Below are positions 1-24,717 of a stretch of 64,000 nt of DNA, in pieces. Location of the stretch: the NCBI RefSeq assembly GCF_012273015.1, contig NZ_CP050954.1, positions 682,001 through 746,000 on the forward strand, written 5' to 3'. The notes below the pieces were generated by a model. The model did no database searches, was not told the DNA's origin, and saw only the letters and a list, made by a program, of their open reading frames with translations. Each line of letters opens with the position of its first letter. The first letter of the stretch is position 1. The DNA is from Hymenobacter sp. BT18 (GTDB taxonomy: Bacteria > Bacteroidota > Bacteroidia > Cytophagales > Hymenobacteraceae). The position numbers and the translations under genes are program-made.

Positions 1-480
1 CTTGGCCAGCTGGTAGCCGTCGAAGCGGTTGAACGCCAGCGCCAGGCCTTTCTGCAGCTGCTTCGACAGACGGTTGAGCTGCTTGGTACCCTGGCGCTGG
101 TTGGCCAGGGCGTAGAAAGCCAGCAGCTCCGTGATTTCGTCGGCGCGCTGCACGATGCGGGCTACCAGGCGGCTCACCAAGTTGTCGCCCCGATGAATTT
201 GAGCCAGCTCCACGGCTAGTACCAGGGGCACGGTGCGCAGGTAGAGCTTTTCACGAGCGTACACGGCCAGCTGCGCCACAAAACGCGGGTCGTTGCGGGC
301 CACCAGCTCGCGAAGGCGCTGCAGGCGGGTATCGGCTTTTTCGTAGTACTGGTCGCTGAGGGCAGCCGTGGCAACGGCGGCGTACAGCTCCAGGGCTGGC
401 GTGAGTTGGTAAGCCACGGCCCCCTCGTGGTTCACCACGGCGGCCGGCTGAGTTTTGCGGAAGCTAAAGTTGAAACGCAT
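1..480 (-). CDS. TROVE-domain Ro60-like RNA-binding protein (partial, 3' end outside window)
   Basis: The first 160 codons are present, reading from the ATG at 480 off the left edge. The N-terminus has the pattern of bacterial Ro/Rsr TROVE proteins: NHEGAVAYQLTPALELYAAV, then LSDQYYEKADTRLQRLRELV, then LRTVPLVLAVELAQIHRGDN and IVQRADEITELLAFY, which correspond to the first helical HEAT-like repeats of the ring. Ro proteins bind misfolded RNAs and Y RNAs and, in bacteria, tether RNases such as PNPase. The usual C-terminal vWA-like domain is not visible because the gene is truncated by the window, not broken. It lies 80 bp downstream of the PcfJ-like gene on the same strand, so co-transcription is likely. 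Family assignment is strong; the RNA partner is inference. Confidence 0.9.
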   Translation of the reverse strand, partial: MRFNFSFRKTQPAAVVNHEGAVAYQLTPALELYAAVATAALSDQYYEKADTRLQRLRELVARNDPRFVAQLAVYAREKLYLRTVPLVLAVELAQIHRGDNLVSRLVARIVQRADEITELLAFYALANQRQGTKQLNRLSKQLQKGLALAFNRFDGYQLAK

Positions 481-560
481 GAGGGAAGTGGGTTTTGGTT
501 ATTCGTTGTTCGTTTATTAAGTATTTGCTGGCCGCTTATGGCAAGACCAGCAGCTGACCT

Positions 561-1862
561 TTAGTACAGGTGCTTTGGCACCAGCAGGCGGTTTTCATTG
601 GCCCAGCGCTGCACCCAGCTCAACTCCTCATCATTCATGCGCCGGTTGAACACGCCCCGGGCTTGCACGATGGTGCGGTTGGCCAGCACCTCGAGGGTAA
701 GGGCCCGCACGCCTCCAACGGTGAGCGAGAAGATGCCGCAGCGGCCCCGCACGCAGGCTTGCACATAGGTGGAAACGCAGTGCCGCTGAGCCCAGCCCTC
801 CCGGAGCAAGTCGCGGTAAGTGCGCAGTTGGGTAATCTGCACTTTGCCCGGCCCGCCCCCGTTGAAATCGGCTACCGCTAGGGGTTCCCAGGTAGTAGCT
901 GCTGTAATGTCGACACCCTCTTCGGGTATTGGCGGAAGGCGGGCTACCTGACGGTGCCACTGCTCCGTTTGGTGCAGCACACTCGCCATGGAGCGCCCCT
1001 TGAGCGTGAAGCCGGGTTGTGGCGGCTCCAGTGGCAGGCCTACGCTCCGCTTCTGGTGAATCCAGTCGCAAACCGGGCCGAAACGCCACATATCAACTGC
1101 GGGAGCAGCCCGAAAAAAGTCGACTACGGTTAGCCAGAAGCTGTCGTCGCGCCCGATTTCCCGGCCCAGCCGCGAGTCCAGCACCGGTCCCAGCCAGCTT
1201 AGCGCGTCACGGTCGGCAAGCTGGGCGTAGCGTAGGGCTTCCAGAAACGTGCAGTTTGCCGGGGCTTGTCGCAGGTGGTGCTCCAGCTTGCGGGTCAGCG
1301 TCAGTGGGAGTCCCTGAAACTTGCGCAACGCCAGGCCTTGCCCAAGGTGGAGCGTAAGCCGCGGAATGTCGATACCCTCGTACAGCCGGCCCGCTATCCA
1401 GGAGTTCAGCACCCAGGCTGGCACGTCGCCATACTGGTCGAACAGGTGGCGAACCAGGCTTTCCAGCTGCCGGAATGGGTTTCGGCTGCGGGGTTTCCAG
1501 TCGGCCAGCTCGCGCCGGCGCTGGGGATAGTGCTTGCCGATGGCAGCCAGGGCCTGACAAAGCTCGGGGCGCCACAGCAGCTCGCTGCGTTGGTCGGCCA
1601 GGGCCAGCAGCACTTTTCGCTGCCGCTGGCTTACTTCCTCCGGCTGATTGAGGATGCAGGCTTCGTAGAACGGAAGCAACACACAGTCGGTGCCGAGTTG
1701 GGCCTGTACGGCCGTCAAAGGGCCGCCCTGGTTAAATAAGTATTCTACCTGCTGGCGGAGCGGCCATTTGCGCCAGTAGAGGCGCCGGGCTGCCGCCAGC
1801 ACAATTACTGCTTGCTCGGCTTGCCAGGCTTCGTGGGATAATGGTTTGTGACGGTTAGCCAT
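561..1862 (-). CDS. PcfJ-like protein
   Basis: A 433-residue protein starting at the ATG at 1862. The C-terminal third carries the PcfJ signature: LKGRSMASVLHQTEQWH (about 290-306), then LREGWAQRHCVSTYVQACVR with its conserved His-Cys, a FSLTV/LTLEV strand pair, and ARGVFNRRMNDEE before the terminal Trp-containing helix. The N-terminal 270 residues are basic, helical and not assigned to a known family. PcfJ was named from a conjugative plasmid and its biochemical role is not established. Here it sits directly upstream of the Ro60-like gene with an 80-bp gap and no terminator between them, suggesting a two-gene operon. No exact -7 box was found immediately upstream. Domain call is good; function is unknown. 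Confidence 0.75.
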   Translation of the reverse strand: MANRHKPLSHEAWQAEQAVIVLAAARRLYWRKWPLRQQVEYLFNQGGPLTAVQAQLGTDCVLLPFYEACILNQPEEVSQRQRKVLLALADQRSELLWRPELCQALAAIGKHYPQRRRELADWKPRSRNPFRQLESLVRHLFDQYGDVPAWVLNSWIAGRLYEGIDIPRLTLHLGQGLALRKFQGLPLTLTRKLEHHLRQAPANCTFLEALRYAQLADRDALSWLGPVLDSRLGREIGRDDSFWLTVVDFFRAAPAVDMWRFGPVCDWIHQKRSVGLPLEPPQPGFTLKGRSMASVLHQTEQWHRQVARLPPIPEEGVDITAATTWEPLAVADFNGGGPGKVQITQLRTYRDLLREGWAQRHCVSTYVQACVRGRCGIFSLTVGGVRALTLEVLANRTIVQARGVFNRRMNDEELSWVQRWANENRLLVPKHLY

Positions 1863-2310
1863 CGGTCGGGGTTGCCCTCGCGGGGTCGTTTACCGATTGA
1901 AAAATCAGAAGAGGTTGGCGCCGGGGGCGCGCTGGGATAAAGCAGAATCCGGAAACCTTCGTACATGACAAATCGAAAAAAAGGACGTAAAAAATCAGCC
2001 AGCTATTCGCGCACGAATACTGCTATTTTGGAAGTTATTTTATTTGAAAACCGTGGACAATATTCTTCCTTATTACCTCAATAAAGGCAATAAAACAGGA
2101 AATAAAACCCGGAATTTAATTCGATTTTAGCTAGCCGATTTTACTCTATTTCTCTTTTCGTCGCCGCGTTTTCGGCGTCGGTTAAGTAGACACGTAGCCC
2201 GTATGCAGCCCACGTGGCACCGGGTACTGAACACCCGATTGCGGGCGACAATGGAGCGGAGCTGGTTGGGCGTAAGCATGGGAGAAAGGAGAATGGGTAA
2301 CAGATAGTTG
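1863..2310. other. intergenic leader of the PcfJ-Ro operon
   Basis: About 450 bp with no supported gene apart from the weak ORF noted at 2127-2276. The part at 1960-2130 is AT-rich, unlike the surrounding genes, and probably holds the promoter of the PcfJ-like gene, although no exact TAnnTTTG is seen on the minus strand. The part at 2140-2260 is GC-rich with short inverted repeats. Confidence 0.4.
2127..2276 (-). CDS. possible small basic ORF, weak
   Basis: A 49-codon reading frame from an ATG at 2276, downstream of the terminator at 2311-2346. The peptide is very basic (RRRKRGDEKRNRVK near its end) and has three Cys residues. There is no convincing ribosome binding site and no family I recognise. 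The same DNA contains several short hairpins, for example CGGGT/ACCCG and a GC-rich inverted repeat near 2160-2180, so it may instead be untranslated leader of the PcfJ-Ro transcript. Reported only because it lies in an otherwise gene-free stretch. Confidence 0.15.
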   Translation of the reverse strand, partial: LTPNQLRSIVARNRVFSTRCHVGCIRATCLLNRRRKRGDEKRNRVKSAS

Positions 2311-2346
2311 AAAAACAAAACGCCCGAATCTGGTGGGATTCGGGCG
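2311..2346 (-). terminator. intrinsic terminator of the small RNA
   Basis: The 10-bp stem CGCCCGAATC pairs 2321-2330 with 2337-2346 around a 6-nt loop. On the minus strand it is followed by TTTTGTTTTT. A shorter T-run on the plus strand makes it potentially bidirectional. Confidence 0.75.
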
Positions 2347-2508
2347 TTTTGCGGAGGATGATTCTATGGATAGAACTTCACCTTGCTGCTAGCGCGCCGA
2401 ACCCCGGCTGGATCTTGCTATCCAGCATTGATGGGGTACCTGCTAATTTATTGTAGTGCCGGCGCATGACGAGGGAAGTGGTAGAAGTCGGTGACGTTTG
2501 GGTCTTTG
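2311..2508 (-). ncRNA. candidate structured small RNA (class unknown)
   Basis: An approximately 200-nt minus-strand unit with its own promoter and terminator. A -7 box TACCTTTG lies at 2516-2523 with a -33 TTG at 2545-2547 (21-nt spacing). The end is a 10-bp hairpin followed on the minus strand by TTTTGTTTTT (2346 down to 2311). In between the RNA can form a long, interrupted hairpin: 2394-2399 pairs with 2460-2465, 2401-2405 with 2433-2437, 2407-2413 with 2420-2426 (7 bp, 6-nt loop), and outside these ACTTC at 2375-2379 pairs with GAAGT at 2484-2488. It precedes a Ro60-like operon in the same orientation, so a Y-RNA-like partner is possible; a 6S-like RNA is an alternative. A 29-codon ORF (2378-2467) overlaps the stem. 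Its existence as an RNA is well supported; its class is not. Confidence 0.55.
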
Positions 2509-2515
2509 AACGGGT

Positions 2516-2547
2516 CAAAGGTAGAAAGGTTATTTTACTTCATCCAA
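2516..2547 (-). promoter_or_regulatory. Bacteroidota promoter of the small RNA
   Basis: Exact -7 box TACCTTTG at 2516-2523 and TTG at 2545-2547 on the minus strand, 21 nt apart, inside a strongly AT-rich region (2520-2700) that could act as an upstream element. Confidence 0.65.
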
Positions 2548-2798
2548 ATTTTTTATAAAATATTTTAAATATTTTTTCAAACAAAATTCAAATCATAACA
2601 CATTTCACACCTATCGTATATTATTTATTAAACAGACACGGTTTATCAGCATTTGCTTAAGAACAGCTCCATACTCTTACAAAACCCCTAACAACGAAAT
2701 ATTCCGACCAGGCCTTGTACCTTACTACGGCTGATGGGTGAGCGGGCACGGCCTGCGAACCTATACTCAGGTACTATCCCCCAACCACTGCGCTTCTG

Positions 2799-6617: not shown

Positions 6618-7235
6618 ATGCCCATATTTCCACGCCCCGCCTTGCTTCTGCTTGGCATTGTGGGGCTTATTTCCTGTCAGAAAGAGGCTGCTATGGCCCC
6701 CGCCCCCGAACAAGTGGTTCCCCTACGCGTGGGCAACACGTGGATGTACCAACGCTACTATTTTGATGACAACGGGGCCGTTACCGACAGCACTATTTTC
6801 ACGCGCACAGTGCTGCGCGACACGCTTATTAATCAGAGTACCTGGTATATTCTCAGCAACCGCGACATTGTTCAGAACAACCAGAACGGGTACGTGCGCT
6901 ACAACCCCAGCGACCCGGCCGGCATCATCCTCTACGCCAACGCCCGCTTTGGTGGCTCCATTGGCTACGGCTACGAATACCCCACCTACACCTTGTGGGT
7001 GATGACGTGGCGGGCCCCCGCGCCGGCCCCCGTCGCTACCTCCCGCCACCGTTACAACGCCATTCGTTACGCTATAGAGTGGCAGTATCAGTACCACAAC
7101 CAGAGTCCCCCCCTTGTGCAAAAGCGCGAGGAATATGTGACGCCGGGCCTGGGTATGGTGCACGCCAACTACTACGCCCGCGAAACCGGGCAGCTGCAGC
7201 AGCGGCTGGAGCTTCTCAGCTTCACGCAGCCCTAG
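6618..7235 (+). CDS. putative lipoprotein of unknown function
   Basis: A 205-residue protein beginning MPIFPRPALLLLGIVGLISC, a type II signal peptide with lipobox LISC, so it is probably an outer-membrane or periplasmic lipoprotein. The mature part starts with a disordered linker, then a motif seen in many Bacteroidota lipoproteins (PLRVGNTWMYQRYYFDDNG), and is otherwise beta-rich with many Tyr/Arg. I recognise no catalytic motif. The ATG at 6618 is preferred over 6579 because it places the signal peptide at the N-terminus. Confidence 0.7.
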   Translation: MPIFPRPALLLLGIVGLISCQKEAAMAPAPEQVVPLRVGNTWMYQRYYFDDNGAVTDSTIFTRTVLRDTLINQSTWYILSNRDIVQNNQNGYVRYNPSDPAGIILYANARFGGSIGYGYEYPTYTLWVMTWRAPAPAPVATSRHRYNAIRYAIEWQYQYHNQSPPLVQKREEYVTPGLGMVHANYYARETGQLQQRLELLSFTQP

Positions 7236-7571
7236 TCACTGCCTTGCTCACCAGGCTTAGGCGGGAAAGCTCTCGGCAGATGATGCCCGCTTGGAGCAGC
7301 CCTAAGGGGATGAAAACCCGGATTTCGCGGGGAAAACTGCGCAAATACTGCTACGTGTTTTCCGGGCGGCGGGCCCCAACTTTCCGCCACCACCGGCTAA
7401 AGTCTTGCTCAGCAGCACCTTGCCCCTTAGCCCGAGTCATGAAACCATAGCCTGGGCTGAGGGGGCGTTTAACGTGCCCGGGCATCCCGCGTATGCTGCT
7501 TGACCAGGTGGGGAAGCACTCCTTCCCTTCTCCCGGCCGAACCACCTACGCCCACCTTTTTCTACCTCGTT
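7236..7571. other. intergenic region
   Basis: About 335 bp without a gene. An imperfect GC-rich inverted repeat (GCCCCTTAGCCC near 7422 with its partner near 7456-7468) may terminate the lipoprotein transcript. No clear promoter for the downstream ferritin-like gene is visible. Confidence 0.35.
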
Positions 7572-8066
7572 ATGTTCGACAAACTGGAAACCCTCGACGA
7601 TTTGTTCGAAATGCAGCTCAAGGACCTGTATAGCGCCGAAAATCAACTGCTAAAGGCTTTGCCGCTGATGGCGGAGAAAGCCAAGGATGGCCGCCTGCGG
7701 GCCGGATTCAGCAAGCACCTGCACGAAACCGAAACGCAGGTAAAGCGCCTCGAAAGAATTGGCAAAGCCCTAAACCTCGACCTGGAGGGCCATACCTGCA
7801 AGGCCATGGCCGGGCTGATTGCGGAAGGCCAGGAAACTATGTCGGAGCGGGCTACGGAGGAAGTGATGGATGCGGCCCTGATTGCCGCCGCGCAGCGCAT
7901 CGAGCACTACGAAATTTCGGGCTACGGCACGGCTGCTCATTTTGCCGGGCGCCTCGGCCACGAGCAGGCCGCCGAGCTGCTGCGCCAGACCCTGGACGAG
8001 GAGCAGCTGACGGACACCAAGCTCAATGACTTAGCCAAGAACTACCTCAACCGCAAAGCAGAGTAA
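7572..8066 (+). CDS. ferritin-like YciE/YciF (DUF892) protein
   Basis: A 164-residue four-helix-bundle protein matching the DUF892/YciE-YciF family: FDKLETLDDLFEMQLKDLYSAENQLLKAL at the start, HLHETETQVKRLERI in the second helix, AQRIEHYEISGYGTA in the third and QTLDEEQLTDTKL in the fourth. The Glu/His residues in these helices are those expected for a ferritin-like di-iron site. The family is induced by general or osmotic stress in enterobacteria. The ATG at 7572 begins exactly at the family N-terminus. A strong terminator follows at 8093. Confidence 0.88.
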   Translation: MFDKLETLDDLFEMQLKDLYSAENQLLKALPLMAEKAKDGRLRAGFSKHLHETETQVKRLERIGKALNLDLEGHTCKAMAGLIAEGQETMSERATEEVMDAALIAAAQRIEHYEISGYGTAAHFAGRLGHEQAAELLRQTLDEEQLTDTKLNDLAKNYLNRKAE

Positions 8067-24518: not shown

Positions 24519-24542
24519 CCCTGCGCTCCATGCCACGGAGCA

Positions 24543-24717
24543 CTTATCAAGAAAGGCGGAGGGACAGGCCCTGTGATGCCTTAGCAACCAGTAGAAATAC
24601 CAGGTGCTAAATCCTGTTCTGAGTCGGCTTCGGTCGGCGCGGAAGAAGATAAGTTAAAAGATGCCTACCGTCTGCAGCGGTCTTGCTCTTCTGACTTGTC
24701 GGGAGGGCTTTTTTTAT
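24543..24717 (+). promoter_or_regulatory. SAM-I (S-box) riboswitch with expression platform
   Basis: The aptamer spans 24543-24653. P1 is CTTATC (24543-24548) with GATAAG (24648-24653). The conserved core CTTATCAAGAAAGGCGGAGG, then GGGACAGGCCC, the TTAGCAACC segment and GGTGCTAA after the P3 region are all present. A possible terminator follows: a weak stem with GGGAGGGC and a T7 run at 24710-24716. High SAM should turn off the downstream methionine genes at 24796 and 26156. Confidence 0.9.

Follow-up and report, generated by a model that had tools for sequence, protein, structure and literature searches.

We propose that a short unit at the head of a gene cluster in Hymenobacter sp. BT18 (2548-2311, minus strand) probably acts as a ribosome-mediated transcription attenuator, a reading that draws on the sequence of the unit and its relatives. 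The cluster lies at the edge of the window, i.e., the 64,000-nucleotide stretch of DNA that was analyzed, and runs beyond it; its gene order is PcfJ-like, Ro60, PARG, tandem tRNA-like Y RNAs and RtcB ligase, and its likely function is RNA repair. Under this proposal, the promoter of the leader would feed the cluster genes as one transcription unit and a short leader ORF (sORF1) would be translated. Once a ribosome arrived in the final third of sORF1, it would cover a segment of the RNA (region 2), so that a terminator would form and the genes would be off, whereas a ribosome stalled early on the ORF would leave region 2 free to form an antiterminator with the 5′ arm of that terminator, turning the genes on, with the polymerase then likely reading through into the cluster. 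The signal is likely to be slowed decoding, in keeping with an operon whose task would be the mending of cut tRNAs.

The unit begins with a predicted promoter of the Bacteroidetes type (2548-2516), in which TTTG (2548-2545; TTG at 2547-2545) is followed after 21 nt by TACCTTTG (2523-2516), and the RNA likely starts near 2508. The 29-codon sORF1 (2467-2378) extends from an ATG at 2467-2465 to a TGA at 2380-2378. Its start contains region 1 (2465-2459), which pairs with 2400-2394 of region 2 in the minimum free energy fold of the ORF, and its tail contains region 2 itself (2405-2393, core GGGGUUCGG), the predicted antiterminator strand. Terminator 1 (2352-2315) comprises a 5′ arm (region 3, 2352-2337), a loop (2336-2331) and a 3′ arm (region 4, 2330-2315), with a U-rich tract visible in the sequence at 2320-2311; all these elements are on the minus strand, and 452 nt separate the terminator from the PcfJ-like gene. 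The 198-nt unit at 2508-2311 has a predicted folding energy of -65.1 kcal/mol (z -5.2), better than all 200 of its own shuffled versions. A sequence-only reading of this DNA had described a promoter, a terminator and a structured RNA of about 200 nt. The promoter holds up as sequence and the terminator as a strong terminator-like hairpin that closes the unit; the RNA is indeed stably folded, but it is not a bare RNA, as it holds a 29-codon ORF with an ATG start. The best Rfam match of the unit is Thr_leader (RF00506; E 0.0015, its 30.6 bits falling short of the cut-off of 55), which we read as terminator-type similarity and set aside as a family assignment. Thr_leader is itself an attenuator family.

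Of 85 Hymenobacter loci, 84 have a short leader ORF at a fixed distance before a terminator, as expected of an attenuator, with 25-29 codons and its end 20-30 nt before a terminator-like hairpin. The detector, built on these same loci and admitting ATG starts alone, passed 0 of 85 antisense, 5 of 255 shuffled and 0 of 219 other windows. The 85 loci comprise 83 TROVE loci, drawn from the 84 of 120 genomes of the genus in which TROVE is present (G122, with the gene at a contig end, was omitted), together with L050 and L051. They exclude L070-L073, four loci of other families; the spurious second ORF of L070 was dropped. The miss is L054, scored as such even though a matching ORF can be made out on inspection. 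Throughout the genus the ORF keeps its start, its stop and its spacing from the terminator, with TGA, TAA and TAG serving as stops in 43, 31 and 10 loci, respectively. Within the 110 nt ahead of sORF1, 23 of the 84 loci have a strict promoter consensus (TTG-N18-22-TAnnTTTG) and 60 a loose form; in the stretch from terminator 1 to the first gene, the strict form is found in none of the 84 and the loose form in one. A scan of 80 further loci over a longer 3.3-kb stretch, largely repeating genomes of the main set, passed 53 of 53 Hymenobacter or Solirubrum loci, H. norwichensis DSM 15439 and H. actinosclerus DSM 15310 among them, and 4 of 27 others; peptides were inspected for 11 of the 53 and for one of the four (L241, unrelated). 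As the loci are related, these counts overstate their independence.

The leader unit tracks RtcB rather than Ro60. It is kept in all 12 RtcB1 loci without a detectable TROVE domain, including 10 of 10 that were examined later (L143 with a diverged peptide), the detector matches counted in these later loci being those with a promoter or with a peptide start of the usual kind. Of seven loci with the second RtcB paralogue alone, six show no match by this count and one (L147) has a match with an unrelated peptide. Three of the 12 loci hold short TROVE remnants.

These patterns bear on the earlier suggestion that the unit at 2508-2311 is a divergent Y RNA binding the Ro60-like protein. While its size, stable fold and position in a Ro60 cluster would suit such a role, the covariance-model check that had been recommended for Y RNA and 6S families returns neither a YrlA nor a tRNA match at E values up to 10, and ARAGORN finds no tRNA. 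Moreover, the unit persists where TROVE is not detectable, a conserved ORF runs through it, and YrlA-like units lie elsewhere in the same cluster. We accordingly reject this identification as very improbable. A length near 200 nt and a stable fold would equally suit 6S or another global regulatory RNA lying here by chance; with no 6S family among the matches at E up to 10, the unit staying beside the RtcB1 cluster in the examined loci and an ORF traversing the fold, we give this scarcely any credence.

The Y RNA partners of Ro60 are instead likely to be the units of the tandem array, judging by their sequence. A covariance model detects eight tandem tRNA-like units in this genome, between TROVE/PARG and RtcB and 2.9-4.1 kb beyond the window edge, bearing out the expectation of Y-RNA-like genes near the Ro60 gene. 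These have a closed outer stem that encloses a tRNA-like T-arm and D-arm; in a 22-unit alignment the T-arm GGUUCGA and the D-arm GUAGCUCAG are invariant, the units having been chosen by a pattern that contains these letters. The array tracks Ro60: the model, which replaced an early motif regex for counting units (giving, for instance, five for L134), has matches in all 83 of the Hymenobacter TROVE loci examined, 22 of which supplied the units on which it was built, as compared to 4 of the 12 loci without TROVE. Against Rfam YrlA (RF02553) the array reaches at best 48.4 bits (E 2.1e-9), short of the gathering cut-off of 69. For Ro partner RNAs in Hymenobacter, the place to look thus shifts from the leader to this array.

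Both protein genes recognized in the sequence-only reading are confirmed. The first 160 of 509 codons of the Ro60-like gene lie in the window (480-1, minus strand), the remaining 1,050 bp being past its edge; the window part matches the TROVE domain (PF05731) with E 6e-8, and the full-length 509-aa protein matches PF05731 (E 1.6e-29) and vWA_Ro60 (PF25045, E 8.9e-10). With both a TROVE and a vWA domain, it is a member of the Ro60 family. Upstream, across a gap of 80 bp, is the gene for the 433-aa PcfJ-like protein (1862-561, minus strand), whose match to PF14284 (E 1.3e-10) is confined to residues 340-411. The proposed linkage of the two genes holds in 43 of 83 Hymenobacter TROVE loci, making it common but not general, and we therefore reject PcfJ as a fixed partner of Ro60, though it may yet take part in the Ro RNP. 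In 9 of those 43 loci a PcfJ-like gene is (also) found between TROVE and RtcB1, and the gene is present in L051 and in three loci without any TROVE sequence (L135, L137 and L143). The protein has no match in NCBIfam or PADLOC. Its AlphaFold model (pLDDT 90) has an acetyltransferase-like structure as its best PDB match (E 0.33, not significant), and we do not take a function from the fold.

Turning to the switch itself, the tail of sORF1 can pair with the terminator 5′ arm over at least 6 bp in 84 of 84 loci, as compared to 39-57% of shuffled ORFs, and the mean length of this antiterminator is 7.5-13.3 bp by class against 4.3-5.9 bp. The motif in the ORF and the arm vary together between classes (GCUCGG with CCGAGC in 29 loci, GGUUCGG with CCGAACC in 17 and GGCUCGG with CCGAGCC in 4), and in silico the antiterminator and terminator are mutually exclusive. 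In this genome, region 2 forms 9 contiguous bp with CCGAAUCCC of the arm, the duplex energy of -23.6 kcal/mol being equalled by none of 200 shuffles. Taken locus by locus, the duplex energies stand out only slightly, the median z being -1.4 for the 84 loci together and -0.8 for the 26-codon class; 16 of the 84 loci lie beyond all 200 shuffles, and swapping arms costs little (mean -15.0 kcal/mol with the own arm, -14.4 within the class and -13.8 with another class). Regions 1 and 2 can pair over at least 5 bp in 75 of 84 loci, as against 37-45% of shuffled ORFs.

When a ribosome is modelled with its A site at codons 1-16, the antiterminator forms in every locus, and with the A site from codon 21 on it forms in none. 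In the modelled state with no ribosome it still forms in 100, 63 and 67% of the loci of the three classes, so that the 1:2 helix would give no clear off state without translation. This genome falls in the 29-codon class, where region 2 would be only partly covered by a ribosome at the stop codon. Terminator 1 greatly exceeds the antiterminator in stability, so any switching would need to be under kinetic control.

Alternatively, the conserved ORF could code for a functional small protein followed by a terminator of its own, with the pairing to the terminator arm as a by-product. The dN/dS values (pairs of at least 70% identity, with six 27-28-codon loci left out) are below 1 in all three classes, namely 0.50, 0.71 and 0.61 for 25, 26 and 29 codons, the lowest being that of the 25-codon class; the other two frames give 1.23 and 0.76 for 25 codons, 0.95 and 0.66 for 26 codons and 0.72 and 1.18 for 29 codons. 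However, the peptide is poorly conserved, and in the 26-codon class the value of one control frame is no higher than that of the ORF itself; by this comparison we reject strong selection on the peptide, the dN/dS of 0.50-0.71 indicating stronger conservation of the ORF than of its peptide. The RNA motif was located in 82 of 84 loci; all 25 loci of the 25-codon class read it in frame 2 and 56 of 57 others in frame 1, and the C-terminal part of the peptide thus lies over the same motif in another frame in one class. Further, sORF1 ends in different peptides in L127 and L109, and L127 nonetheless retains the motif and the antiterminator fold. We therefore regard a small protein as quite unlikely.

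In 60 of the 84 loci, this genome not among them, a second ORF-terminator pair follows in series and would repeat the check. Its antiterminator is found in 60 of 60 loci against 66-69% of shuffled ORFs (13.9 bp against 6.7-6.9 bp), while its 1:2 pairing (19 of 60 against 33% shuffled) is no better than shuffled, and we reject a 1:2 helix for sORF2. The 36-codon sORF2 has a dN/dS of 0.69 against 0.79 and 0.82 in the other frames. BT18 has a possible second leader ORF of 50 codons (2279-2127, minus strand), and its nearest relatives, L046 and L047, carry similar ORFs at this position; the strong second terminator of other lineages was not found at this locus. The serial repeat with an unrelated ORF, together with the strict placement of the ORF relative to the terminator, favors a signal read by the ribosome over a true attenuator whose direct signal is a leader-binding ligand or protein, with translation only clearing the RNA. 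The strong nucleotide conservation of the 26-codon class (UCGGAUAA and GCAGCC) exceeds the needs of the antiterminator and speaks for such a ligand or protein, which we nevertheless consider unlikely.

If ribosome-mediated attenuation is accepted, the codons at the sORF1 head may hint at what is sensed. The head holds Tyr, His and Asn codons, with Arg at codon 3 and Asp at codon 12; colicin E5 cuts Tyr, His, Asn and Asp tRNAs and colicin D cuts Arg tRNAs. Across codons 2-12, His/Asn/Tyr are about two-fold enriched among pyrimidine-ending codons (after conditioning, 0.33 against 0.17 in 35 representatives and 0.32 against 0.17 in 10 representatives below 50% identity); Ser and Phe codons are also raised, and Arg only slightly. 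The plain codon enrichment partly reflects pyrimidine-ending codons. RtcR (PF06956) has no match at E ≤ 0.001 in the genome (99.99% complete), the E. coli control being positive. We tentatively entertain, as a possible but doubtful extension, that the leader senses cut tRNAs directly and takes the place of the RtcR/CARF sensor of other bacteria: cleavage of a tRNA would stall the ribosome at the sORF1 head, the antiterminator would form, and RtcB, Ro60 and Y RNAs would be made until the tRNAs are mended, constituting a closed feedback loop with translation as the reader of tRNA damage.

The attenuators of the trp and his operons are ribosome-mediated, with a leader ORF and a 2:3 antiterminator competing with a 3:4 terminator. 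The Hymenobacter leader resembles these in its ORF, its alternative 2:3 and 3:4 helices and possibly a 1:2 helix with the ORF start, but differs in having no run of one codon, in its two serial units in 60 of 84 loci, and in its target, which would be RNA repair and not the synthesis of amino acids. To our knowledge, the known switch of RNA-repair operons is RtcR, which responds to tRNA fragments, and we found no leader of the present kind among the open-licence papers searched. If our proposal is true, a translation-read attenuator would be a second, independent coupling of RNA damage to repair, and the natural signal of such operons could be tested with a simple reporter. The array, for its part, has a T-arm, closed stem and D-arm in YrlA order, but departs from YrlA (RF02553) in scoring under the gathering cut-off and in its eight tandem units in this genome. 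In the Salmonella rsr-yrlBA-rtcBA operon, as described in the available part of the source, RtcR (CARF, sigma-54) responds to tRNA fragments (PMC7790460). As in that operon, Ro60, Y RNAs and RtcB share one cluster; unlike it, as far as that part of the source goes, the Hymenobacter cluster is headed by a leader, with RtcR not found in the genome, and adds PARG and a PcfJ-like gene, with no RtcA among the cluster proteins examined (PMC7790460). Within the phylum, leader-peptide-like sORFs were noted in long 5′ UTRs of Bacteroides thetaiotaomicron (PMC7366714, available part); the Hymenobacter leader is akin to these, yet, by the same partial account, which gives no comparative test, heads different genes.

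On the minus strand of this complete 4.69 Mb genome, a promoter sequence is followed by an ORF-terminator unit (2508-2311), a PcfJ-like gene (1862-561) and a Ro60-like gene that begins at 480 and runs past the window edge. Outside the window, on locus L003 (coordinates equal to window position plus 10,000), lie a microbial PARG (8824-7991; PF10021/TIGR02452), a tandem array of eight tRNA-like, YrlA-like RNA units (7133-5948, i.e., 2.9-4.1 kb before the window's first base) and two RtcB genes (5850-4354 and 3655-2207). An ORF on the opposite strand between PARG and the array (7173-7961), transposase-like by eye, suggests an insertion element within the cluster. Ro60, its probable RNA partners and an RNA ligase thus share a single gene cluster. 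The PcfJ-like protein, whose closest named relatives are from Hymenobacter, has a conserved HCV...C...G motif close to its C-terminus; its confident structure model returned no significant fold match.

Alignment of the unit with its relatives revealed a fixed layout: promoter, ATG, 25-29 codons (sORF1), stop, 20-30 nt and a strong terminator. A detector with rules derived from the same Hymenobacter loci that it scored was positive in 84 of 85 of them, as against 0/85 antisense strands, 5/255 shuffles and 0/219 other windows of these loci; at L054, the sole miss, visual inspection reveals a matching ORF. sORF1 has 25 codons in 25 loci, 26-28 in 38 and 29 in 21, including this genome, and ends in TGA (43), TAA (31) or TAG (10). 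Its dN/dS amounts to 0.50 for the 25-codon set, 0.71 for the 26-codon set and 0.61 for the 29-codon set. Because a control frame scores as low as the ORF frame in the 26-codon set (0.66), sORF1 is retained as an ORF with a peptide that is at most weakly conserved. A second ORF with its own terminator is present in 60 of the 63 loci of the 25- and 26-28-codon classes (36 codons in 50 loci, 35 in nine and 32 in one) and in none of the 21 loci of the 29-codon class, this genome included. Several 26-codon-class leaders (e.g., L052, L054, L061) show a AAATAAAA...TTTTATTT inverted repeat past terminator 2, and a few have a third short Arg/Pro-rich ORF ahead of the first gene.

The sequence-only reading had suggested that this unit could be a divergent Y RNA serving Ro60. 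Its expectation of a Y RNA near Ro60 is probably borne out by the array but not by the unit, for which an Rfam search recovered neither YrlA nor 6S. The array matches the YrlA model at E-values of 2e-9 to 8e-5, under the curated cut-off, and a covariance model derived from 22 units out of the same set of loci is positive in each of the 83 Hymenobacter TROVE loci covered. Among 36 genomes of the genus without a TROVE match, 12 have RtcB1, and in seven the sole RtcB is closer to the second paralogue. The unit persists in 12/12 of the former and the array in 4/12, three of which also keep short TROVE remnants (ends only); hence, the Y RNAs track Ro60, while the ORF-terminator unit tracks RtcB1. 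Six of the seven second-paralogue genomes gave no detector hit with a promoter or a typical peptide start, and the hit in the seventh (L147) encodes an unrelated peptide. Elsewhere in the window, a SAM riboswitch is found at 24541-24655 (RF00162, 78.7 bits, above cut-off).

The sORF1 tail resembles the terminator 3′ arm and can therefore pair with the 5′ arm: in this genome GGGGUUCGG of the tail pairs with CCGAAUCCC of the arm. The most frequent motif-arm pairs across 84 loci are GCUCGG-CCGAGC (29), GGUUCGG-CCGAACC (17) and GGCUCGG-CCGAGCC (4). In minimum-energy folds, such an antiterminator of at least 6 bp forms in 84/84 loci versus 39-57% of shuffled ORFs, and the second ORF forms one with its own terminator in 60/60 versus 66-69% (13.9 versus 6.7-6.9 pairs), the loci being related by descent and all locus counts thus not independent. 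The tail motif, found in 82/84 loci, is read in frame 2 in 25/25 of the 25-codon class and in frame 1 in 56/57 others; since the frame differs between classes, the feature shared by the tails is an RNA motif rather than a peptide. Within individual loci, the duplex energies stand out only modestly (over 84 loci, median z -1.4; 16 exceed all 200 shuffles) and swapped arms pair nearly as well (own -15.0, same class -14.4, other class -13.8 kcal/mol), so that covariation rests on few class-level changes. The ORF start can also pair with the antiterminator strand in 75/84 loci versus 37-45% in shuffles. Folds lacking a ribosome nevertheless keep the antiterminator in 100% of the 25-codon class, 63% of the 26-codon class and 67% of the 29-codon class, so a lack of translation may fail to keep the genes off. 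With a modelled ribosome, the antiterminator is available when the A site is at codons 1-16 and lost from codon 21, an outcome largely set by motif position and hence to be read as evidence of geometry, not function.

As for the signal, His, Asn and Tyr make up 0.23 of sORF1 codons 2-12 versus 0.09 in the cluster's own genes in 35 representatives (0.33 versus 0.17 for pyrimidine-ending codons only). Codon 3 is Arg in 78 and codon 4 His in 71 of 94 ORFs; Ser and Phe are likewise raised over codons 2-12, with no such rise for Lys and Trp. PMC6277466 describes colicin E5 as cleaving the Tyr, His, Asn and Asp tRNAs and colicin D as cleaving the Arg tRNAs. We infer that the leader might read tRNA damage of the anticodon-nuclease type.

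In none of 84 loci does the stretch from terminator 1 to the first gene contain the strict form of a Bacteroidetes-type promoter, the type searched for, and in one it contains the loose form; the genes are thus likely supplied by read-through past terminator 1. Upstream of sORF1, only 23/84 loci have the strict form and 60/84 the loose one.

Among named records, the detector passes 53/53 Hymenobacter and Solirubrum loci, 11 of which had their peptides inspected, and 4/27 others, with a single peptide inspected. Of 20 further loci of the order, L153 shows the unit clearly on visual inspection, and many others have a repeated TGCGCA-like element near the gene instead. Outside Hymenobacter (L070, L072 and many of L151-L170), this element often lies just ahead of the TROVE gene, and a divergent gene resembles, by eye only, a WYL-domain regulator. 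Many Hymenobacter promoters, for their part, retain a TTGCGCAA. All this may reflect an earlier switch that the leader has superseded. In L073, from another family of the order, a short ORF upstream of 2230 has a GUUCGGGUUCGG tail matching a CCGAACCC terminator before TROVE, and is possibly an independent attenuator.

Ribosome-mediated attenuation is a long-established principle; no published account of its predicted deployment, often in tandem, ahead of Ro60, Y RNA and RtcB genes turned up in the literature searched. RtcR, the known rtc-operon regulator, was not found in this Hymenobacter genome. According to PMC7790460, colicin D induces the E. coli rtc operon, in which RtcR acts as the sensor.
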